A stretch of DNA of 21,406 nt from a virus: positions 1 to 21,406 of IMG/VR virus record IMGVR_UViG_3300008261_000188. One strand, 5' to 3'. How positions within the stretch are numbered: the first letter of the stretch is position 1; every line of letters begins with the position of its first letter. Under the pieces are notes generated by a model. It saw only the letters and a list, made by a program, of their open reading frames with translations. It did not search any database and was not told the origin of the DNA. A program made the translations under genes and the position numbers. Positions 126 through 18,398 of this stretch are shown here, piece after piece.

Positions 126-896
126 TCAATCTCCTAGCAGATCATTAAATGCTGCTTCTACAGAGTTAGAAGCTTTCTTTTTCGAAGAATCATTTCCGTA
201 CTTTGCAGTCTCGGAAGAGGCTTCCTCAGGATTATCTCCCGCTAGATACTGATCAAGCATTGCCTGAACTTGTGCTGCTGTCTTACGCTCGAATAGCGTG
301 TTAAAATCAGGAACTGACTTCAGAAGTGCAGCACACTCCTCTGAACTAATATTGGGACATACTGGTGAGGTCCTACGATGAGGAATAAGACGTGTAGTTG
401 GGAATGATGCACCAACAGGCTTGCCATACTGCAAAGTAAGATCCGTTCCCTCCTTCGGGTCCGTAATATCTCCATACTCAGGGTTTAGAACCAAGGTTAG
501 AAGCTGCTCATACACAGTCTTTCCAAAACCCCAGATGCGTACTCCCTGATCTTCCTCTCCACGAACGATAATAGGGGCAAAGAATCGCTGGCGTGCTGAT
601 AGCTCCTTGGCCATCTTGATGGAATCCTCAGTACCCTCGCTCCAGAGGGAGCGAATGAAGTCATTGAGCGGATCATCTTCACCAAAGTTCTTCTTAGGTG
701 AGAGGAAACCGTTATTGTCTCCGAGGTTGTAGTGAAACCAGTACTCCTTAAAAGGATCGCCATCGGCGGTTGGCACAATTCGAATCGTCTGCTCGCCATC
801 GTTTGGCCGCCAAAAGACATTCTTCTGCTTTGTATCACGTCCACCATTCTGTAGACGATTAAGCTTTTCCTTCATTCGTGATAGATCAATACCCAT
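126..896 (-). CDS. 32: Single-stranded DNA-binding protein, T4 gp32-like
   Basis: The gp32 family coats single-stranded DNA during phage replication, recombination and repair and contacts the replisome through an acidic C-terminal tail. This 256-residue protein (T4 gp32 is 301) has a basic N-terminus that could act in cooperative binding. FWRPNDGEQTIRIVP at residues 28-42 and FHYN at 54-57 mark the start of the OB fold. RFFAPIIVRGEED (104-116), RIWGFGKTVYEQLLTL (120-135) and DITDPKEGTDLTL (143-155) resemble the core strands and the DP...EGxxxxL element of T4-like gp32. Residues about 218-247 are low-complexity and likely a flexible linker before the terminal VEAAFNDLLGD. The His/Cys zinc site of T4 gp32 is absent, as the only cysteines are C180 and C188. 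A strong AGGAGT ribosome-binding site precedes the ATG, and a TATAAATA box lies 64 bases upstream. Confidence is high for the family. Confidence 0.88.
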   Translation of the reverse strand: MGIDLSRMKEKLNRLQNGGRDTKQKNVFWRPNDGEQTIRIVPTADGDPFKEYWFHYNLGDNNGFLSPKKNFGEDDPLNDFIRSLWSEGTEDSIKMAKELSARQRFFAPIIVRGEEDQGVRIWGFGKTVYEQLLTLVLNPEYGDITDPKEGTDLTLQYGKPVGASFPTTRLIPHRRTSPVCPNISSEECAALLKSVPDFNTLFERKTAAQVQAMLDQYLAGDNPEEASSETAKYGNDSSKKKASNSVEAAFNDLLGD

Positions 897-952: not shown

Positions 953-1819
953 TTAAATGTTATTTATACTTCTTTCATCCTGAATCTGATCAGTATAAGC
1001 TACAAAATAAGCATAATCATTATCATAATCTGTTTCATTGATTTGAAATGAAATCTTAATGCCTTCTTTTCTAGCTTTACTTCTCATGTTTTCTTTCAAT
1101 TGCTTGAAATACTTCCCGTCAGATAGGGATTTCTTGCTGACTCCGATATAGTAAAACCGTTCTCGTACTTCGTTAAGGGGAAAAAACATCTTTTCTTCAC
1201 CGGTCACCGGATCAACAACGCCATAGGTTGAAATCCTATGATGTTCTTCGTGTTCTTCAACATTATTGAAGATCGACTTCCTATTTGAAAAGACGTTAAC
1301 CATATGAATAGAGCTAGAAATAAAACTATTGATAGAATCAAAATAACCCTTTACTGGCAGGTCTCCCATAATCGCTTCAATTGAAGGATTATATACTAAG
1401 GATATACTATTGAACAAGCCAGACCTTGCATATTCTTGCAAGATATTAAAGCTGATCCTATTCAAAATATATCTCTTTCCACCCATTAAAGTAATATCTG
1501 GTGTTATGTAGAGAATGTTGAGATTACAGTGCTTGATCTTCTCTAAGATCCTCAAAGATGAGCCGACAATCTTTCCTCCGCCTCCCAATATGAATATTAC
1601 ATTCGTCTTTTCATCAAAGCCCGAAAAGAATGAAGTCATATCAGGACAATTTTCTTCATAAGCCTCAGATGTTAACTGAGATGGCATAACAAAATTATTC
1701 TTTACATTTGTTGTAGGGTGCAGGATTTCGTCAATTTTGAAGACCTCATATTGAGGATATTTTGAGAAATTCTCAGCGATTGCACAACCAGCAGCCCCTA
1801 ATCCAATTATTGCGTCCAT
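953..1819 (-). CDS. FtsZ/tubulin-superfamily GTPase-like protein
   Basis: This 288-residue protein shows the FtsZ motif order. There is a glycine-rich N-terminal nucleotide loop, GLGAAGCAIAENF (residues 6-18; compare GVGGGGxNAV). A strand ending FKID (27-30) sits where FtsZ has its NTD loop. A G-box-like ILGGGGKIVGSS (77-88; FtsZ GGGTGTG) follows. Then come YITPDITLMGGKR (104-116; FtsZ TKPFxFEGxxR), a helix, SISLVYNP (138-145; FtsZ IvIpN) and a GYFDSINSFISSSI helix (158-171; FtsZ LLDAFxxANxVL). Motif spacing is close to FtsZ. The catalytic NxDxxD T7 loop is not recognisable and the G-box is altered, so GTP hydrolysis and polymerisation are uncertain. The start ATG lies inside the last codons of the polymerase gene (13-base overlap) with an AGAGGT ribosome-binding site, implying coupled translation. 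The C-terminal about 110 residues are divergent. Phage tubulins such as PhuZ are established in jumbo phages; the role here is unknown. Confidence 0.68.
   Translation of the reverse strand: MDAIIGLGAAGCAIAENFSKYPQYEVFKIDEILHPTTNVKNNFVMPSQLTSEAYEENCPDMTSFFSGFDEKTNVIFILGGGGKIVGSSLRILEKIKHCNLNILYITPDITLMGGKRYILNRISFNILQEYARSGLFNSISLVYNPSIEAIMGDLPVKGYFDSINSFISSSIHMVNVFSNRKSIFNNVEEHEEHHRISTYGVVDPVTGEEKMFFPLNEVRERFYYIGVSKKSLSDGKYFKQLKENMRSKARKEGIKISFQINETDYDNDYAYFVAYTDQIQDERSINNI
961..968 (-). promoter_or_regulatory. Possible T4-type late promoter for the gp32-like gene
   Basis: The minus strand reads exactly TATAAATA, the T4 late promoter box recognised by the gp55 sigma factor. It lies inside the last codons of the FtsZ-like gene, 64 bases before the start codon of the gp32-like gene. 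This would give a leader of roughly 55-60 bases. In an AT-rich genome an eight-base AT motif also arises by chance, so the placement is the main support. Confidence 0.4.
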
Positions 1820-3006
1820 TTAGTTGTACCTCTCATATTTCCGTAATTCTTCCCAACAGACATGTTAATACGATACTTACCTAGTTCTGTATCAGAAAAT
1901 TTCTTTACAAGTTCTGGGATTAGATAAAGTTCGTCTGCGCTCATATCGAGCACAATATTGTCATGTACCGTAAATGATATGAATGATTTCATATTTTTTA
2001 ATGACTTATCAAGCTCGACCATTCGCTTGAGAAGAAGATCGCTTGTAGTGCTCTGAATAATATAATTCAAAGCATGCCTATCATCAGATTCGATCCTTCT
2101 TCCAAAATGAGTTGTAATTACTCCATTGGAATAGTACTTCTTACATACCTTATCCCTATCGTAGAACTTATTGAATGACATATCTTTGCTATCTGGGTTA
2201 TAAAGCCATGAAAAGACCTTCTTCTTTGCATCCTCTCTTGTCATAGAACCCAAGAAGATATTATTCACATTCCAATCGTGAATGTCCTCTACAGGCTGGG
2301 ATATATCAGAGAGAGATAGAAGAGTTCGAAGCTCAGCTGCGTTAAAATCAAACTCGACAAGGTAATCGTTGACCGGTTCAATGATTGAACGAAGTTCTTT
2401 CTTCAGATTATGGATCGGAAAGCTTGTCTTGGTTGTCGATAACCGGCCGGTCTTCGTTCCAAATAGATTATATCTGATAAACTGTTCAGAATCTTTATGC
2501 TTCTTCCAGAAAGCTCTAATGTACGGGTCGGAAAGAGAAGCTCCCAAATTCTTGAAATTTAAATTCAATTTTCTGCGCTCAATAGAGGAAAGGACTTTTG
2601 TTACATCAGCTAAGAATTCATAGTTGCTCGGCTTCTCATAGTTTTCCAGAACATGCTTACAGATAATATTTTTTAGTTCGCAATGTTCCATCAAGAATTT
2701 CTTGGGGATCAGATCGTAAATACAGTTTTCGTCCAGCGAGACCTTACTTGTCTCAAAAGACTTCATGAATGCTCTCATTTTATGAGAAATGCTGTTCCAT
2801 TCATTTAGATATTCTTCTGGACATGACTCGGAAAGACTCGCTCCATTTGCATAAAGTTGAGCATATTTAACATCTCCAATGATGTGAGGAGAGTGAGACC
2901 ACGTAGCGGTTAAAGATACTTCTTTCGGTCGTTCTTCATAGAAGATCTCGCCATTGATATAGAAGCTAGCACAGTGCTTCTTATCATCAAGAACTTGGAA
3001 AATCAT
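1807..3006 (-). CDS. Short family A (Pol I-type) DNA polymerase
   Basis: This 399-residue protein carries the family A palm and fingers motifs in order. TKTGRLS (184-190) is followed by PIHNLKKELRSIIEP (197-211), the region before motif A. Motif A is EFDFNAAELR, with catalytic D220, E225 and R227. The motif B O-helix is REDAKKKVFSWLYN, with R257, K261 and Y269. An ALNYIIQSTTSDLL helix (312-325) precedes motif C, FTVHDNIVL, with catalytic D349; the usual Glu after this Asp is Asn350. The protein is very small. There is no 3'-5' exonuclease domain, and the A-B and B-C spacings (about 37 and 88 residues) are shorter than in Pol I or T7 polymerase. It likely synthesises DNA for phage replication or repair, but its proofreading must come from elsewhere. 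AGAGGTAAA precedes the ATG, 15 bases after the upstream gene. Both catalytic aspartates are kept, so activity is plausible. Confidence 0.88.
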   Translation of the reverse strand: MIFQVLDDKKHCASFYINGEIFYEERPKEVSLTATWSHSPHIIGDVKYAQLYANGASLSESCPEEYLNEWNSISHKMRAFMKSFETSKVSLDENCIYDLIPKKFLMEHCELKNIICKHVLENYEKPSNYEFLADVTKVLSSIERRKLNLNFKNLGASLSDPYIRAFWKKHKDSEQFIRYNLFGTKTGRLSTTKTSFPIHNLKKELRSIIEPVNDYLVEFDFNAAELRTLLSLSDISQPVEDIHDWNVNNIFLGSMTREDAKKKVFSWLYNPDSKDMSFNKFYDRDKVCKKYYSNGVITTHFGRRIESDDRHALNYIIQSTTSDLLLKRMVELDKSLKNMKSFISFTVHDNIVLDMSADELYLIPELVKKFSDTELGKYRINMSVGKNYGNMRGTTKWTQ

Positions 3007-3021
3007 TTTACCTCTTATTGA

Positions 3022-4320
3022 TCAATAATAGCTAAAGCTCTTAAAGCTATCTTTTATTCTCTTGTCCAAGATATCGTAGACTTGTTTCTTTGTCAAATCT
3101 TTTTGATCAAAAATTTGATTTCCTTTATATTGACTGAATTCAATTAACTCTTTATAAAGATAATAGATAACTCCACTTTCCCCGATCTCTCTAACCAAAT
3201 TTCCTTCAACCTCTATTTGTGATGATTCCCATATTTTTCGTGAGTCCATTATTTCTTCAGCTCTTGAGACAACATTATTAAACTTAGTTTGAGTCCACTT
3301 TTTATTTGCCTCTAAAGCTCTAACATAAGCATATATGCGAATAAAATATCGACTTGGAAATAGGTTAAAAAATTCATCTTGAGAATATCTTTTTCTTAAA
3401 ACCTTTTTGAATAAATCGGGATTAATTGTTTGCTTTTGAGGTATAAAAAAAAGTGCTTCGTACCAGCTCCATAAATTAAACTTAAAATTATCTAATTCTG
3501 TCTCATGAGTTCTTATAAAGAAATCATCATAAAACGTCTCTGGGGATGAGTTATAGTCAATGAGTTTATTTCTCATTGCAGTTGATTCTAGATCTGGAAT
3601 CAGTCTCCAAGGAACATTCTTGTCAAGTTCGAAGCCGAAATCTTTAATATATTGAGTAAATTTATTAAACGAGGGATCGTTGATTATATCAATTTTTTTC
3701 TGATCTTTATCATATGAATTTTTATTCTCGATCTCAATCAAAAGCCCACTAGAACTGGGGTGTACAAAGCTTGATAATAGAAATCCCTCTCTGGTAAAAG
3801 GGGTTATTTTGTGCATAATCTCAACGAATTCTAGATAAACAGATATAAATGAGGGAAAATCTATAATTTTTTCATTCCTCTCTTTATTCAAAAATTTCCC
3901 TACAAATGAATTATACAATACCTCATTATATTGAGTATTTTTTTGAGATGCGTCTTGCCAACCAATAGATGGCTTAAGTTTTGTGAAAACTGTTTCTCTG
4001 TAATTACCTACTTGCAACTTCTGAACTTCTATAGAGTTTTTTAACTCGAACCACAATTCAGCAATCGGTGATAATACTAAAATTAATTCCTCGTCGGGCC
4101 CTGAAATTGGTCTCATAAGATCAGCTCTTGGAATGACACATAAATTGCTGGTATCTATCTTTCCAAAATAAGGCTGCTCATGCCATAGGTCAAAAACAGC
4201 CTGATTGAAGAAATGACAATCATATATGCTCCTATAGTAAAAAGCTTGAAAAGCAGCCGACGAATTTGTGGCTTTTGATTCATTGATATCAAATAAACTT
4301 ATTAAATCACTTTTTTTCAT
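3022..4320 (-). CDS. Conserved phage protein of unknown function
   Basis: I do not recognise a named family. The 432-residue protein is rich in aromatic and charged residues, has no signal peptide or membrane segment, and looks like a soluble globular alpha/beta protein. Distinct stretches are PFTREGFLLSSFVHPSSSG (about residues 174-192), KNVPWRLIPDLESTAMRNK near the middle, and a lysine-rich C-terminal helical region (QKDLTKKQVYDILDKRIKD). I recall similar stretches in proteins of marine T4-like phages, but not an experimentally assigned role. It sits between the probable tail-hub gene and the polymerase gene, so it could be a virion component or belong to the DNA-metabolism block. A GGAAAT ribosome-binding site precedes its ATG, 18 bases after the hub stop codon. 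Confidence 0.75.
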   Translation of the reverse strand: MKKSDLISLFDINESKATNSSAAFQAFYYRSIYDCHFFNQAVFDLWHEQPYFGKIDTSNLCVIPRADLMRPISGPDEELILVLSPIAELWFELKNSIEVQKLQVGNYRETVFTKLKPSIGWQDASQKNTQYNEVLYNSFVGKFLNKERNEKIIDFPSFISVYLEFVEIMHKITPFTREGFLLSSFVHPSSSGLLIEIENKNSYDKDQKKIDIINDPSFNKFTQYIKDFGFELDKNVPWRLIPDLESTAMRNKLIDYNSSPETFYDDFFIRTHETELDNFKFNLWSWYEALFFIPQKQTINPDLFKKVLRKRYSQDEFFNLFPSRYFIRIYAYVRALEANKKWTQTKFNNVVSRAEEIMDSRKIWESSQIEVEGNLVREIGESGVIYYLYKELIEFSQYKGNQIFDQKDLTKKQVYDILDKRIKDSFKSFSYY

Positions 4321-9113: not shown

Positions 9114-12100
9114 TCACCTAGTAACAAGACTTTGATTCTTTTCGATACGCTCTCCAATTATCTTCCCTAAAACATAATTATCTACCTTAAGAACAATTTC
9201 CTTATTTCCTCCGCTTGAGGTTTGGGTACTCTCTCTTATGTCCTTTGATTTATTTACACCAAAAACAGATTTTAAGGCTTCAATAAATGAGTCTTGCTCA
9301 GGTACTCTTGTTTCTGCTTGAATTTTTGAATATTCCGCCGATAGTTCAACCAATGATTTGACATTTTCAATTCCTTCGGGTGTCACCTTTACGCTGGCGT
9401 CAGACACAGAAGTAATTAATGCCGCAAAGGATAAAGCTTCGATCTCCTCTAAAGATGAAAGAGCAAAAGATATATTCCATATTCCATCGGCTATCATATT
9501 TAAGCCCTGAGAAATACTATCAAATTTTTCGATACTGGCTACTGTGGTTAATACTCCCTGTAAAGAAGCTATCTTTTCAGTTGAAATAGAGTTCAATGAT
9601 TCTGCTAATTTGCTTATTTCTTCTGAAAAACTAGCAGTAAATACACTAGAAGCACCTAAAGACATTTGGGCTGTGCCCATTGTATCTATAAAATTAGCTA
9701 ATTTATTTAGTGGCGCTTCCATATTTTCTAGGGAAGATAAACTGGTCGTTGTCTCTTCTAACATAGCAAATACTTCTCTTAATTTCGGACCCAAATTAGC
9801 AAATGATTCCAACTGCGGATTTAACTGTTCCATTCTCTCTGCCAATATTTGCAAATTATCTTCCATGAGCCATATGCCCATACCTATAGCATCTCCGGCG
9901 ACTGCAAGATAAAATGAGGCGGCCAATAATGATAAAGAGCCTTTAAAGAGAGCAGTTGCAAAAGGTATAAAATACTGAGAAATACTTATCATTTTCTCTA
10001 TATCTAGAGCTTTTATTGCAGAACCAAGCGTATGTAGTGCTGGTGCAATAAATATAGCAGCTGGTAATAAAAATATCGATGCAGCCAACAAGAGAGCTCC
10101 ACCAAGAGCTAACGGAATACCAGCTGCTACTAAAGATAAGCCTAGCATCAATAAAGCTGCCCCCAAAGGAGCGATCAAATCAACAGTTTTATCACTAAAA
10201 AGAAGTAATCCAATCCCAAGAGCTAATAGCCCAGCTCCCACTGTAATTGCTGCTATTCCAAAGCCTACAGCTGCTGCATTCATAAATATTCCAGCTAACA
10301 TTAAAGTAAAAGCAAGCAAGATCAAAGCTGCTCCCAATGGAGCAATCAATTCAACAGTTTCTTCCTTAAAAAGAAGCAATCCAAGGCCGAGTAATAAAAG
10401 TCCAGCGCCTACTGCAATTGCTCCTATTCCAAATATTACAGCTGCTGCATCCATAAATATTCCAGCTGCAATCAAAGTGGCTGCGAGGGAAATTAAAGCA
10501 ACTCCAAGGATAGGTATCAATTCAACAGTTTCTTCCTTAAAAAGTAATAATCCAAGGCCAAGAGCCAATAGTCCAGCACCTACCGCAATTGCCCCTATTC
10601 CAAAAACTATAGCTGCTGCGTCTAGCAATATTCCAGCTGCAATTAATGTTAATCCAAGTAAAATCAAGGAAACTCCAAGGGTGGGTATCAATTCAACAGT
10701 TTCATTGTTGAAAAGAGACAATGAAGTACCAAGCAAAAGCAAACCAATTCCAACTACCGTCGCTCCAGCACCAAACGTAGTAGCTGCTGTCAGCATTAAA
10801 GGACCAGATATTGCTAAACCAAGAGCAAACAACCCCAACGCCCAAGGTAGTTCATACATAATTTCCATAACTTCTTCAAAGTTTTTTAATGATTCAGAAA
10901 ATAAAAATAATGCTGCTGACAATAAAATAAATCCGGGTGCTAGTGCCATCATACCAGCGCCTATTAAAGTAGCAGAAGTCATAAACGCAGGAGCTATTGG
11001 TAACATTAATGCAATTAATCCAATAAATCCAACTAAGGTAAGTAAAAATAAAGCCATGCCTCCAATGGCGGGAAGTATTGCCTCAGGCATTTTCATAAAA
11101 ATAGTTATTAGTTGCACTAAAGAATAAACAAAAATTGCTGCTGCGGCAGCTGCGAGTCCAATACCTAAAGCTAAAGCTGCAATTGCAGAAATTCCAAGTA
11201 TTGCAGGGGGGGTACCTAAAGCTGCCATAGAGCCAGCAAGAGCGGTAACTCCAGTTGAAGCTCCTGCGGCTGCGGTACCCGCCGTTGTAGTTGAAGTGGC
11301 CAAACTTATATTTAAAGCTTGAAGAATACCAGTCAAAAAGGCTTGAGCTTTTGTTGAATTTTGCCAGAGAACAAATAGACCAAGCATGGTAACCAATACT
11401 GGTACTAACATTCCTCCCATGGCATCATTTAGAGATAATATGCCATTTAACAACCAGCTGATTACTTCGACGATAGGCTGAATGATCAATATAAAAGATT
11501 CCATTATCATATTCATTTTTTCTTGAATTGAAACGGTTGCTTGAGTTCTTTTCTCCAATTCTGCTTGAGAAATTGAATTATCTCTGACCATTGCCTGAGA
11601 CTCTTGATATGCTTTGAGGCCGCCAGCAAAAATCTTATTCGCCTCAGCCATATCTTTGATACCAGCTGCATTTGCAAGAGCCATTTTTTCATAACGACTC
11701 ATGGAGTTCCAACTCATATTGGATGCATCAACTCCACGAAGAAGGCTTTCGATACGCTCTTCTTCTGAAGAGTTTATCATCTCATACGTATTAAGCAGAT
11801 CACCACCAAGAATATTGTTTAATTTTCCGACAGCACTTGCTGCATCTTCATATGTATCAAATTGAGCTGTAAATCCGAGTAATGTCTGTATTTCAGCGCC
11901 TAAATTCTTTGCTGCTGACATTACCTTCTTAAATATTTCTGGTGCTTGTTTACCATATGAAGCTAAAGCAGGTAAGGCAGCTCTAAACTGATTTGACATT
12001 TCAGCAACTGGATAACCGATGCCCATCGCCAATTTTGCTATATCTTGATTAGCTTTCATTGCTTCATCGGCAGTCATTCCCATACCTAGCATAAATTGTT

Positions 12101-12992
12101 CAGTGAATTCGGCAGTATCTTTAGTAGAAACTCCTAGTCTCTCCAGCTGAGCACTGTGAGCCACAAGTGAAGCTTGAACATCTTTCGATAAGTTATTGAA
12201 ATTTGACATTGAAACAAACAATTCGCCTATAGCTTGTGCGCTCTCTTTCATCCCCACGCCAAATTGTCTATTCGAATCTGAGACCTCCATTATTAAGGAG
12301 TTATATTCATATCCTTGACCAGTCAATGTAGCTAAAGAGGCGGCTTGTTGACTGAATCCTCCAATAGCCGCTAAGGTCTGGGTTTGAATTTGCATCAGCG
12401 CAGAGCCTAGCATGTTTGCTGGCCTCATTGCTTGCAAAAATCCAGCTGCCATGTGTTTTAAAGATTTTACAATATCATCGCTTTTTGCTAATTTTCCAAA
12501 CCAACTTTTTTCCCAATTTTTAGATACGCCAAAAACTTTATCAGCAAATTCCTTGCCGAGTTCATTCATTTCTTTTTGATTTTCTACAGCTTCTTTTTGC
12601 TGTTTAATGAACTGTTCTAAAAGAGGAATTTCTTTTTCTAGAAATGCTAATCTTTTACTCTCCTCCTCGGTAAGGGCTTCCCCTAAGGCTATTTTATCTT
12701 GGAGTGCTTTTAATTCTTCTTTATTTATTCTTAAGGATGCCTTCCCAAGTTCAATGTGTTTATTCTGGATTAAAATGGAGTGTTCTAAGGCTTCACCATT
12801 TTCAATCATTTTAGCGCCTATATCTTGTAATTGCTTAAGTTCTTCTTGTCTTTGAAGAAATAATTCCTTGGATGATTTATTTATCTCACTTAATCGTTCA
12901 AGATATATATCCATCTCCTCTTCTGATAATGGTATTCCTTTAGGAGGCGGTGGTGGTCCGGGAGGGCTTGGGGGTGGTGGTGGTATTGCCAT
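9114..12992 (-). CDS. Tail tape measure protein
   Basis: The tape measure sets tail length and fills the tail tube before DNA ejection. This 1292-residue protein (T4 gp29 is 590) starts with a proline-rich leader (residues 4-17 almost all Pro). A charged coiled coil follows (about 22-150). Residues about 165-500 form an alanine-rich tape-measure core, with IGGFSQQAASLATLTGQG and repeated helical Gln/Ala/Met segments. A very hydrophobic Ala/Gly/Leu region covers about 510-1010; within it a 57-residue unit repeats in tandem. The C-terminal about 280 residues are helical and soluble. The long hydrophobic region is typical of tape measures that enter the host membrane during ejection. GAGG lies 11 bases before the ATG. 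It is the longest gene in the window, and its length predicts a long tail. Assignment rests on size, composition and position, all consistent. Confidence 0.87.
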   Translation of the reverse strand: MAIPPPPPSPPGPPPPPKGIPLSEEEMDIYLERLSEINKSSKELFLQRQEELKQLQDIGAKMIENGEALEHSILIQNKHIELGKASLRINKEELKALQDKIALGEALTEEESKRLAFLEKEIPLLEQFIKQQKEAVENQKEMNELGKEFADKVFGVSKNWEKSWFGKLAKSDDIVKSLKHMAAGFLQAMRPANMLGSALMQIQTQTLAAIGGFSQQAASLATLTGQGYEYNSLIMEVSDSNRQFGVGMKESAQAIGELFVSMSNFNNLSKDVQASLVAHSAQLERLGVSTKDTAEFTEQFMLGMGMTADEAMKANQDIAKLAMGIGYPVAEMSNQFRAALPALASYGKQAPEIFKKVMSAAKNLGAEIQTLLGFTAQFDTYEDAASAVGKLNNILGGDLLNTYEMINSSEEERIESLLRGVDASNMSWNSMSRYEKMALANAAGIKDMAEANKIFAGGLKAYQESQAMVRDNSISQAELEKRTQATVSIQEKMNMIMESFILIIQPIVEVISWLLNGILSLNDAMGGMLVPVLVTMLGLFVLWQNSTKAQAFLTGILQALNISLATSTTTAGTAAAGASTGVTALAGSMAALGTPPAILGISAIAALALGIGLAAAAAAIFVYSLVQLITIFMKMPEAILPAIGGMALFLLTLVGFIGLIALMLPIAPAFMTSATLIGAGMMALAPGFILLSAALFLFSESLKNFEEVMEIMYELPWALGLFALGLAISGPLMLTAATTFGAGATVVGIGLLLLGTSLSLFNNETVELIPTLGVSLILLGLTLIAAGILLDAAAIVFGIGAIAVGAGLLALGLGLLLFKEETVELIPILGVALISLAATLIAAGIFMDAAAVIFGIGAIAVGAGLLLLGLGLLLFKEETVELIAPLGAALILLAFTLMLAGIFMNAAAVGFGIAAITVGAGLLALGIGLLLFSDKTVDLIAPLGAALLMLGLSLVAAGIPLALGGALLLAASIFLLPAAIFIAPALHTLGSAIKALDIEKMISISQYFIPFATALFKGSLSLLAASFYLAVAGDAIGMGIWLMEDNLQILAERMEQLNPQLESFANLGPKLREVFAMLEETTTSLSSLENMEAPLNKLANFIDTMGTAQMSLGASSVFTASFSEEISKLAESLNSISTEKIASLQGVLTTVASIEKFDSISQGLNMIADGIWNISFALSSLEEIEALSFAALITSVSDASVKVTPEGIENVKSLVELSAEYSKIQAETRVPEQDSFIEALKSVFGVNKSKDIRESTQTSSGGNKEIVLKVDNYVLGKIIGERIEKNQSLVTR
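10120..10870 (-). repeat. Tandem 171-bp (57-residue) repeats within the tape measure gene
   Basis: The sequence encoding TVEL recurs at exactly 171-base intervals: the minus-strand ACTGTTGA-type word sits at 10693, 10522, 10351 and, more diverged, 10180. Each unit encodes a hydrophobic block with GIGAIAVGAGLLALGLGLLLF followed by an ETVEL-type hinge. Three units (residues about 767-823, 824-880 and 881-937) are clear; degenerate copies flank them on both sides. The two central copies are also visibly similar at the DNA level. The period is a whole number of codons, so gain or loss of a unit keeps the frame. Confidence 0.85.
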
Positions 12993-15332: not shown

Positions 15333-18300
15333 TTAATCATCAAAAGATGCACCAGAACGTGCGATTACGAAATCAAGTGCAATAAATTCGATAGCTCTCG
15401 TCGGCTTAAGGAAAATCTTTGCATATACAATGTTTCTATCGATAAGATCAGGAGTTGTGGTCGTCTCATCTAATACCACTCTAAATTCTGAAATTCCAAA
15501 TCTTGCTCTGACAGAGGCTAAGAAAGGATTTACCTGAGAAGTGAATCTCTGCCATGTTACGGAAACATTCTGATCGAAGAGAATTGTTGTGGCAATTCTT
15601 GAAATCTCCTTCTTGAGATAAATCATCAAGCGACGAACATTGATTCTATCGAGAGCTGATGGAGTTACCTGCAACGTCTTCTGACCGAAAATAACTATTC
15701 CTTCTGAAGGGAAAGAAGCGATAGGATTGATATTATTCTCATAAAGATCATCTCTCTCTCTTGATGAAAGCTTGTATCTTACTTGAGTAACTGGTAATCC
15801 AGCTGATCCCTCAGATAGGCCGCCACGGTTGAATCCTGCTGGGGCAAACCAAAGTTCCGTTTTATTCTGCGAGCTAGCCATGGTTCCTAATGCGACGACA
15901 GAAGGCGGTACCCAAACAAGAGAATCAGAAGAATTATCTCTAATCTGAACCCATGGGTAATAAGCACAACCATAAGATGAATTGATATTTCTATCTTTCA
16001 TGTTGGCAATTGCTAGTCTTATATCTGGCAATCTATCAACTTCTTTTTGATAATTTTCAGTACTCGGAATATAATCATGTGGAAGGTCGAGAATAGCTAG
16101 AGCATCTCCTCTCTCTTCACATACAGTTAAAAGCTGCTCAGTCAAACCTATGTTTGTTACACCGGGCATTGTGGCAATATTAAATTCAACGACTTCAGAG
16201 TCAGAAACAGTCTGAATAGCTCTCTTGAGAGTATTGAACGAATAAGAGTTCAACTCATTAGCATCTTCACCATCTTCTGCTTCATCTAATAATGTATTTC
16301 TAAATGGCTCTCTCTCTGTAATATCAAAGCCATCGAAGCCATGAACAAATGGTACAGTGAACGCATTGAATCCAGCTGCTAAAACATCTCTAAAGGTATT
16401 CTGTTTATCGGTCAATGTAACACTTCCGCCATCGGTCTCAGGAAGTTGCAACTGATACATGGAAGAAATTGAATTTCCTGCATATCTTGAACCGGGCAGC
16501 CATTCGGCGTGTTTATTACTCTTCTGATTATTTACCGCATTTAAGGTAACCCAAGCTAAATCATCGAGGGTAAAGTTTGGTACAACACCATATCCATCGA
16601 CGTCTCCGGCGGCTACTCTACACTCCGCTGCATCTGAGGTTTCGTTAACGTTGAAAAGAGCAATGTCTTTGCTCTTGTCATAGCACCCCCTAGGTGTTCT
16701 TAGGGATGATTTTGTAATATATCTTCCCTCCTCTGCTCTACCATCCCAATTATTTTGGTCGTCTGCACTCCATGGACGAAGAAGTTCGCTATATGACTCA
16801 TCAAATCTATTTGAACCTCTAAAATTGGCAATTGCCCCAAAAGAGACAGAACGAGAAGAGTTTCTTACTTCTTCTGTACTCGATCGACACGACTGAGAAG
16901 GCATGACGAAGTGTGCTTCCTGTCCGTCTGACAGTCCCTCAACATTATTTACATCACCATTATCACCAATAACAACCGGTCTTGTTGAAATACTGTCAGC
17001 AAAAGTATCGGCGCCTTCCCCCGCTGAAAGGTACAATTCCTGACCTCCGTTATTCCATCTTAGAATCTTGAAGTTTCTAGGTGAAGGAGGACCTTCGAAG
17101 CCAAAAGGAACTAATCCGGGATCCATAGAACCAGCTTCAAACTCTTCATTCATTATGACACGAATATAAGTTGAATTATTTGGATATTGACCTACTGTCT
17201 TATATCTTCCTTCCTGATAACTCCAAATAGAATCCATATCTCCAATTCTTCTTGCAAGATAATCAGGCGATGATGGATTAAGATTTAAACCAGTATATCT
17301 CTCAATTGCTTGTCTGTTCTGATCAGAATCTTTGGCATCACGAATTGTAACCGAGAAAGAACCATATTTTGAATATATTCCCTCTGCTGGCTTGATATCT
17401 GATATTTCAATCTTCAAATTGTGAAGAGGCCAGTGCCCATCGTTAAGAGATTCAAAGCGAAATAATCTTTCAACTCCAACCTCATACTGTCCTGTACTAT
17501 TATTTACGGTATGAGTCTCATATGCGCCCAAATGCTGGCTCAAAACCCATCCTGTCTGTGGAGATTGCGCTTCAATTCTATTATTTTGTTTTTCGCTTAA
17601 TTTCATTAAGATAGCTATACCATTATTTGAATCAGGAAGACCCGTGTTCAAGTTGCTTAATGTCTCAGAGACTGAAGTAGTATATGTTTCTCCCAAGAAA
17701 TAAGCTTTTAGTGAAGTTGAAGTTGGTGATGTTATATCTTCGTTAATGAGAGTTGGATTTGTATTTAAAACATTTCGAATGAATTTCTTCGAATCTGGAT
17801 TAAAATTTACGGAATATACTTCAGAACCAATATTTACTTTTACTTCTGCATCAGTACCTTGACATAAAACAAATGTATCAGCTGCATTAGTTACTGGACT
17901 ATCGTCATCGGCTCTTTTGCCTGAAAGACCAACAGTAGTACCGTCAGCCTTAGTATAAATTACTGAAGCAAGAGTTAAAAGATGCTTATTTGCAGCTAAT
18001 CCATTCTTCTTGCCAACAAATAGACCCCAAGCTGCACCAGTTTCCCACCCAGCATGTCCAGCCGCAGAAGCGTCGCTGTGATGATGACCAAGAAGACGTA
18101 CATAGGTTAATGGCGATGCATTTCTTAGCCATGCCTGAGCTGCATAAGCTCCATAGGTTGGGGCTGTTCTATTTCCATTTCTCCAAACATCGCCTGATTC
18201 GTTACCGGGAATTGGATATCCAAAGGTCTCAACGAATTCAGAAAATGAGCTTACAGTTATAGGTCTCATTGAAGGCCCTCTCTCTGACCTACCAATTACT

Positions 18301-18398
18301 ACAGGACCGATTCCCTGACCTACAGCAGGAATCTGAGACTTATCAATTTCACTAATATAAACTCCGGGTGAAACAAATCTGAATTTCTTAACTGACAT
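15333..18398 (-). CDS. 18: Contractile tail sheath protein, T4 gp18-like
   Basis: Gp18 forms the contractile sheath around the tail tube. The N-terminus has the family signature SPGVYISEIDKS (10-21), with VVIGRSERGP and a downstream FVETFG. The conserved C-terminal core has GIVIFGQKTLQ, INVRRLMIYLKKEI, TTILFDQNVSVTWQRF and FRVVLDETTTTPDLID, ending with an EFIALDFVIARSGASF strand. These strands knit neighbouring subunits together. At 1021 residues it is far longer than T4 gp18 (659). The extra length lies in the middle (about residues 130-700), where inserted domains are expected to face outward. A strong AAGGAG ribosome-binding site suits an abundant virion protein. Confidence 0.95.
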   Translation of the reverse strand: MSVKKFRFVSPGVYISEIDKSQIPAVGQGIGPVVIGRSERGPSMRPITVSSFSEFVETFGYPIPGNESGDVWRNGNRTAPTYGAYAAQAWLRNASPLTYVRLLGHHHSDASAAGHAGWETGAAWGLFVGKKNGLAANKHLLTLASVIYTKADGTTVGLSGKRADDDSPVTNAADTFVLCQGTDAEVKVNIGSEVYSVNFNPDSKKFIRNVLNTNPTLINEDITSPTSTSLKAYFLGETYTTSVSETLSNLNTGLPDSNNGIAILMKLSEKQNNRIEAQSPQTGWVLSQHLGAYETHTVNNSTGQYEVGVERLFRFESLNDGHWPLHNLKIEISDIKPAEGIYSKYGSFSVTIRDAKDSDQNRQAIERYTGLNLNPSSPDYLARRIGDMDSIWSYQEGRYKTVGQYPNNSTYIRVIMNEEFEAGSMDPGLVPFGFEGPPSPRNFKILRWNNGGQELYLSAGEGADTFADSISTRPVVIGDNGDVNNVEGLSDGQEAHFVMPSQSCRSSTEEVRNSSRSVSFGAIANFRGSNRFDESYSELLRPWSADDQNNWDGRAEEGRYITKSSLRTPRGCYDKSKDIALFNVNETSDAAECRVAAGDVDGYGVVPNFTLDDLAWVTLNAVNNQKSNKHAEWLPGSRYAGNSISSMYQLQLPETDGGSVTLTDKQNTFRDVLAAGFNAFTVPFVHGFDGFDITEREPFRNTLLDEAEDGEDANELNSYSFNTLKRAIQTVSDSEVVEFNIATMPGVTNIGLTEQLLTVCEERGDALAILDLPHDYIPSTENYQKEVDRLPDIRLAIANMKDRNINSSYGCAYYPWVQIRDNSSDSLVWVPPSVVALGTMASSQNKTELWFAPAGFNRGGLSEGSAGLPVTQVRYKLSSRERDDLYENNINPIASFPSEGIVIFGQKTLQVTPSALDRINVRRLMIYLKKEISRIATTILFDQNVSVTWQRFTSQVNPFLASVRARFGISEFRVVLDETTTTPDLIDRNIVYAKIFLKPTRAIEFIALDFVIARSGASFDD

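Follow-up and report, generated by a model that had tools for sequence, protein, structure and literature searches.

A compact, divergent protein of predicted tubulin/FtsZ fold without a recognisable T7 loop is encoded among replication genes of uncultured ocean phages

Introduction

What could a protein resembling FtsZ do in a bacterial virus when its gene lies between those of a DNA polymerase-like protein and a single-stranded DNA-binding protein (SSB), and when it lacks the T7 loop? The question arises from an IMG/VR record of 21.4 kb, the whole stretch of DNA analysed here (the window). A preliminary description had read one of its genes as a possible divergent phage tubulin and had offered a stable filament, a non-polymerising nucleotide sensor or a decoy for host FtsZ as functions. 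Tubulins that function as GTPases have active sites shared between neighbouring subunits: one subunit supplies its T7 loop and helix H8 to finish the site of the following one, and these two elements also make the longitudinal contact. We refer to the protein as TUB1 and to a second phage tubulin, encoded on some of the contigs that carry TUB1, as TUB2.

Results

Predicted fold of TUB1

The AlphaFold2 model of TUB1 (pLDDT 93.3, pTM 0.91; input alignment of 39 sequences) contains a Rossmann-like N domain, the central helix H7 and a C-terminal activation domain. Compared with the PDB using Foldseek, the model matched FtsZ, TubZ and CetZ first (E 7e-13 to FtsZ), and all 50 matches listed belonged to the tubulin superfamily and ran over the full length. 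VIA-align returned Z scores of 25.2 for CetZ (265 residues, rmsd 3.0), 23.4 for TubZ, 23.1 for FtsZ and about 22 for tubulin, with alignments spanning 265-284 of the 288 residues. The closest viral model in BFVD was A0A6J5RW92, an FtsZ-annotated protein of an uncultured Caudovirales phage (E 2e-12, TMq 0.77). An NAD-binding Rossmann dehydrogenase was considered as an alternative and discarded in view of the full-length matches to the tubulin superfamily.

Sequence searches gave weaker signals. TUB1 as a single query found no match in Pfam, PHROGs or PDB sequences, and when 39 family members were scanned one by one, PF00091 was matched more often than any other Pfam family, though weakly and by only seven of them (best E 0.0064). 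The hhalign score of TUB1 against FtsZ (18.2) lay inside the column-shuffled decoys (95% level 20.3), and that against TUB2 was marginal (21.6 vs a decoy 95% level of 20.5). Since profile-profile scores are indecisive, the assignment is based on the predicted structure together with collinear motifs. On this basis, membership of TUB1 in the tubulin/FtsZ superfamily by fold is well supported, and the model depicts a compact, divergent member of that fold. The earlier proposal of a divergent phage tubulin is thus upheld by structure prediction, which gives a whole-length tubulin/FtsZ fold with H7 and both domains and not a dehydrogenase; of the computational checks suggested with it, the fold search recovered FtsZ, TubZ, CetZ and tubulin (Foldseek, VIA), while the profile-profile comparison, run with hhalign, left the TUB1-FtsZ score within shuffled decoys.

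Distribution and selection

A pattern scan yielded 52 viral relatives of TUB1 that share its length and neighbours and are 31-44% identical to it when aligned. Scanning at the level of the family placed relatives at no fewer than 594 IMG/VR viral loci or contigs. The median dN/dS was 0.086 (15 usable close pairs). Because relatives keep length and neighbours, occur at at least this many loci and show so low a ratio, TUB1 is more than a chance ORF; it is a conserved gene under strong purifying selection. Its carriers, numbering in the hundreds, are uncultured ocean viruses of bacteria. A tblastn search of 50,697 phage records gave one partial match (E 3), which we take as chance, and a pattern scan of GTDB genomes found none; carriers thus turned up neither among the isolated phages nor among the cellular genomes searched. 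TUB1 appears to represent an undescribed family: no description of it, nor of a non-catalytic phage tubulin of this sort, was found in the open-access literature searched.

Motifs kept, altered and missing

Conservation was assessed on an alignment of 113 sequences (Table 1). The stretches GLGAAGC (6-12), GGGG (79-82) and TPDITLMGGKR (106-116), to which attention had been drawn, are present in the ORF, and NxDxxD is absent as had been noted. The T1 phosphate loop is retained across the family, its glycines being near-invariant (G6 98%, G8 100%, G11 96%; n=113), and the protein of the window has an alanine at residue 13 and so does not retain N13. In FtsZ and tubulin, residues N165, F182 and N186 (E. 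coli FtsZ numbering) contact the guanine base. Of their TUB1 counterparts, N164 is kept in 103 of the 113 sequences and position 160 is tyrosine or phenylalanine in 86 (Table 1 gives N144). The T1 loop, N144, the aromatic residue 160 and N164 are the true matches to FtsZ. The GGKR of TPDITLMGGKR is private to this protein and the family consensus there is PDxxLLxxxxxxQE, so that this part of the likeness to FtsZ is coincidental. The description of the G-box as altered holds in that the T4 signature GGGTG[ST]G (GGGTGTG in E. coli FtsZ) is absent from the family, but the GGGG itself is peculiar to the protein of the window; across the family the box reads G-G-[S/A/G]-G-x-[I/V]-S-G.

Table 1 Features of the TUB1 locus, numbered along the window
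Feature	Positions	Strand	Basis
TUB1, divergent protein of predicted tubulin/FtsZ fold, 288 aa, ATG to stop	953..1819	minus	ORF, AlphaFold2, Foldseek/VIA, viral relatives
Short family-A DNA polymerase-like gene (polA), 399 aa, upstream of TUB1	1807..3006	minus	PF00476 E 2.5e-18
gp32-like SSB gene, downstream of TUB1	126..896	minus	PF08804 E 3.7e-14
432-aa protein (g432), no known family, directly upstream of polA	3022..4320	minus	TUB1-bearing loci
T1 phosphate loop, residues 6-13, GLGAAGCA; family GLGxAGCN, with N or A in the last place	1781..1804	minus	113-sequence alignment
Altered T4/G-box, residues 78-86, LGGGGKIVG; family GG[SAG]Gx[IV]SG	1562..1588	minus	113-sequence alignment
C-terminal end of helix H5, residues 127-134, LQEYARSG, most conserved stretch of the family	1418..1441	minus	mean entropy 0.23 bit
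N144, aligned with E. coli FtsZ N165 (guanine contact)	1388..1390	minus	hhalign; N in 102/113
Central helix H7, residues 159-178; F160 and N164 aligned with E. coli FtsZ F182 and N186	1286..1345	minus	model DSSP
Residues 179-195, expected site of T7 (NxDxxD) and helix H8, loop alone	1235..1285	minus	DSSP and alignment

Residues 179-195 form a 17-residue loop between H7 and S7 (196-202). This loop is the most variable of all segments measured (entropy 2.45 bits), has no conserved aspartate or glutamate among the 113 sequences and contains no helix in the model. The loss of T7 is thereby confirmed over 113 relatives, and the model adds that helix H8 is lost as well. Where helix H9 would be, the model has a short hairpin region, and the modelled chain ends in S10 (269-276) followed by a six-residue helix, with no long C-terminal H11 or acidic tail as in PhuZ.

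The strictest conservation of the family has shifted to LQEYARSG at the end of H5, where Q128, Y130 and R132 are invariant (113/113), and the end of H7 is also conserved (H172, M173 and N175; HMxN). Helices of a Rossmann-like domain have their C-terminal ends on the side away from the nucleotide. From this fold topology, LQEYARSG and the H7 end would sit on the edge opposite the nucleotide, on the side where T7 would project, and together they are the candidate for the most conserved surface of TUB1.

Gene neighbourhood

The start of TUB1 overlaps the end of the polA-like gene by 13 nt, inside its last codons, and 56 nt separate TUB1 from the SSB gene. Among the 53 sources compared (window included), a polA-like relative was recognisable in 50 and a gp32-like SSB relative in 47, and the order g256, gp53-like, g1217, g432, polA, TUB1, SSB is kept in nearly all loci. 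A few loci (L009, L028 and L030) have an additional ORF of about 103-112 aa that separates polA from TUB1. The 432-aa protein was not recognised by profile in the examined related loci without TUB1, and may possibly be a partner of TUB1 or a baseplate protein.

A tail module of T4 type takes up the remainder of the window, with a sheath, a gp19-like tube, a gp15-like sheath stabiliser, a baseplate hub and a gp53-like wedge. The sheath protein is very large (1021 aa; 15333-18398), with significant sheath-family matches only in its C-terminal third, and a tape-measure-like protein of 1292 aa (9114-12992) contains several near-repeated hydrophobic segments (GAIAVGAGLLxLGLGLLLFKEETVELI).

Downstream of polA-TUB1-SSB lie UvsX-like recombinase, exonuclease and DnaB-like helicase genes, which together with these three genes make up a replication block. 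The 166-kb TUB1 contig G004 encodes these three functions together with ribonucleotide reductase and a bacterial-type (PolIII alpha-like) DNA polymerase. The latter has 1135 aa (L054:1850-5257) and is encoded in addition to the short polA-like gene of about 399 aa. No T4-type family-B polymerase was detected in 13 records, so the label 'T4-like' applies to the tail, SSB and recombinase genes but not to the polymerase. A search of 11 records with gp105 of 201phi2-1 (chimallin, the nucleus shell protein), made without a positive control, gave no match.

The terminase of G004 is closest to those of Flavobacterium phage immuto (44%) and Microcystis phage Mel-JY01 (41%). A block of gp53-like, polA, a variable slot and SSB is common to Immutovirus, Mel-JY01, a 484-kb uncultured phage (LR756508) and the seven examined contigs with TUB2 only, and continues in these relatives with ORFs sized like recombinase, exonuclease and helicase. 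Their polA-SSB slot holds other ORFs, none of them a tubulin by the TUB1 profile, and TUB1 is therefore a clade-specific occupant of this slot. In TUB2-only relatives, the slot can contain an ORF with the DEDD-type exonuclease motif VxxDVETTGL (L365:8440-9297, L367:8295-9134, L368:8068-8907), which by its motif looks as if a separate proofreading subunit stood in the place of TUB1.

A second phage tubulin

TUB2, a protein of 364 aa, is encoded on contig G004 (L063:1027-2121, minus strand; PF00091 E 3e-6) and aligns with FtsZ at an hhalign probability of 94%. Its T4 and T7 motifs are intact, comprising a canonical GGGTGS and a DxxD whose invariant D249 and D252 align with the FtsZ T7 acids D209 and D212. 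Modelled in the same way as TUB1, it served as a positive control: H8 (250-257) directly follows T7, so the pipeline shows this helix where it is present, and the match to TubZ reaches a Z of 32.9. A0A6J5RW92 is the closest viral structure in BFVD to TUB2 as well. TUB2 sequences share 57-100% identity among 80 viral loci with varied gene contexts, and tblastn in INPHARED phages gave no match.

Both genes occur on six contigs (G004, G014, G015, G016, G022 and G098), 31-107 kb apart in the five longer ones. TUB2 was present in only one of five contigs of at least 120 kb chosen for TUB1, and TUB1 was missing from five of nine contigs of at least 150 kb chosen for TUB2, all counts being on incomplete contigs. 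An obligate pairing is rejected on these counts, since many large contigs carry one gene alone.

Discussion

We propose, tentatively and at somewhat less than an even chance, that TUB1 is a protein of tubulin fold that binds a guanine nucleotide without hydrolysing it and serves as an adaptor in the phage replication complex; we infer both the binding and the adaptor role. TUB1 would probably still bind a guanine nucleotide. Since it lacks T7 and, in the model, H8, it would be incapable of the tubulin GTPase cycle, and neither GTP hydrolysis by the tubulin mechanism nor a standard protofilament would be expected. Instead of forming a dynamic filament, it may act, with nucleotide bound, as an adaptor or scaffold and use the H5/H7 patch to dock a phage partner. 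We arrive at the adaptor reading from the largely kept guanine pocket, the position in the replication block and the new invariant patch, and at its link to replication from the location of the gene in a block of polA-like, TUB1, SSB, UvsX, exonuclease and helicase genes. This neighbourhood supports such a link without proving a physical role in replication. Of the three functions offered previously, the best fit is that of a protein that binds nucleotide without hydrolysing it; the absence of interface elements makes a stable filament of the canonical kind less likely.

Filaments of another kind deserve consideration, as the complete two-domain fold of TUB1 and the conserved H5/H7 patch, a candidate interface through which a new filament mode is possible, could allow polymerisation via non-canonical contacts, with stable filaments that would organise the compartment in which the phage replicates. 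This has been suggested for FtsZl1, with a filament mode proposed to be novel (PMC2875224). We regard this reading as unlikely, since TUB1 lacks both T7 and H8, elements of the subunit contact in phiKZ TubZ, tubulin and FtsZ protofilaments (PMC3678025), and a PhuZ-like long C-terminal H11 or tail. Conversely, the fold may have been repurposed without any nucleotide, leaving a pure accessory protein of the polymerase or SSB. The loss of the T4 signature, the alanine at position 13 in this protein and the 13-nt overlap with the polA-like gene are consistent with this; however, near-invariant T1 glycines, and N144 and N164 kept in about 90% of the family, would not be expected of an unused pocket, which makes the nucleotide-free variant improbable.

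The existence of TUB2 raises the prospect of a two-tubulin cytoskeleton in which TUB1 is an accessory subunit that caps, nucleates or anchors TUB2 filaments, for example to replicating DNA. A nucleotide face without a T7/H8 face is the expected look of a one-sided cap, TUB2 retains intact T4 and T7 motifs and six contigs carry both genes. We nevertheless consider such a role rather unlikely, given the large contigs with one gene alone (TUB2 in one of five, TUB1 missing in five of nine) and the wide spacing of the genes where both occur, although the contigs are incomplete. The specific picture of a large ocean phage group in which TUB2 forms a catalytic filament, and a non-hydrolysing TUB1 either caps this filament or attaches it to the machinery of replication, is improbable too; if true, it would amount to a division of labour between TUB1 and TUB2 analogous to that of alpha- and beta-tubulin and independently evolved in phages. 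Phage inhibitors of FtsZ exist, and an FtsZ fold with a nucleotide face and no T7 face could also suit a takeover protein that caps host FtsZ filaments and blocks the divisome. Against this, sequence identity between TUB1 and FtsZ is just about 11-16%, no FtsZ-specific interface motif was found in TUB1 and a position in the replication block is unusual among host-takeover genes. Such a role is very improbable, and the idea of a decoy for host FtsZ found no specific support.

Under the favoured adaptor reading, hundreds of marine phages would retain, as a core gene next to their replication genes, a compact, non-catalytic tubulin, a case of the fold being turned to another use. TUB1 would offer a natural minimal tubulin for asking what remains of the fold's function once T7 and H8 are gone. 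It also suggests that T4-related ocean phages have a component of the cytoskeleton family that escapes current annotation tools.

Comparison with known systems

The phage tubulins that we found in the literature (PhuZ and TubZ) are catalytic filament formers. TUB1 resembles PhuZ, the TubZ of phiKZ, from the jumbo phages that form a nucleus, in being phage-encoded, compact (phiKZ PhuZ has 327 aa) and of the tubulin/FtsZ fold, with a similar T1 loop (GGAG). However, PhuZ keeps a T7 acid, which it requires to hydrolyse GTP (PMC7950403), and has H11 and a C-terminal tail (PMC3678025), whereas TUB1 has none of these and belongs to another phage group, where it lies beside replication genes. T7-loop mutants of PhuZ lose GTPase activity and form non-dynamic filaments (PMC7950403), and the protofilaments of phiKZ TubZ, tubulin and FtsZ agree in where T7, the base of H8 and S9 are placed within the subunit contact (PMC3678025). 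With FtsZ, CetZ and TubZ, TUB1 shares a two-domain fold over nearly its full length (Z 23-25) and the guanine-contact asparagines, but it differs in its altered T4 signature, in the missing T7 acids, H8 and H9 and in an identity of about 11-16%. Because the T4 signature and T7/H8 were tested for and are absent, we do not class TUB1 as FtsZ, TubZ, CetZ or PhuZ. Phage FtsZ proteins of the TUB2 type differ from it in their canonical GGGTGS and DxxD and are encoded elsewhere in the genome.

The nearest conceptual precedent of TUB1 is FtsZl1 (Makarova and Koonin 2010), a superfamily member without recognisable S6-T7 elements whose filament formation is doubtful (PMC2875224). FtsZl1 is cellular and has its own long C-terminal extensions, whereas TUB1 is viral, has a length of 280-300 aa and retains both H7 and the second domain.
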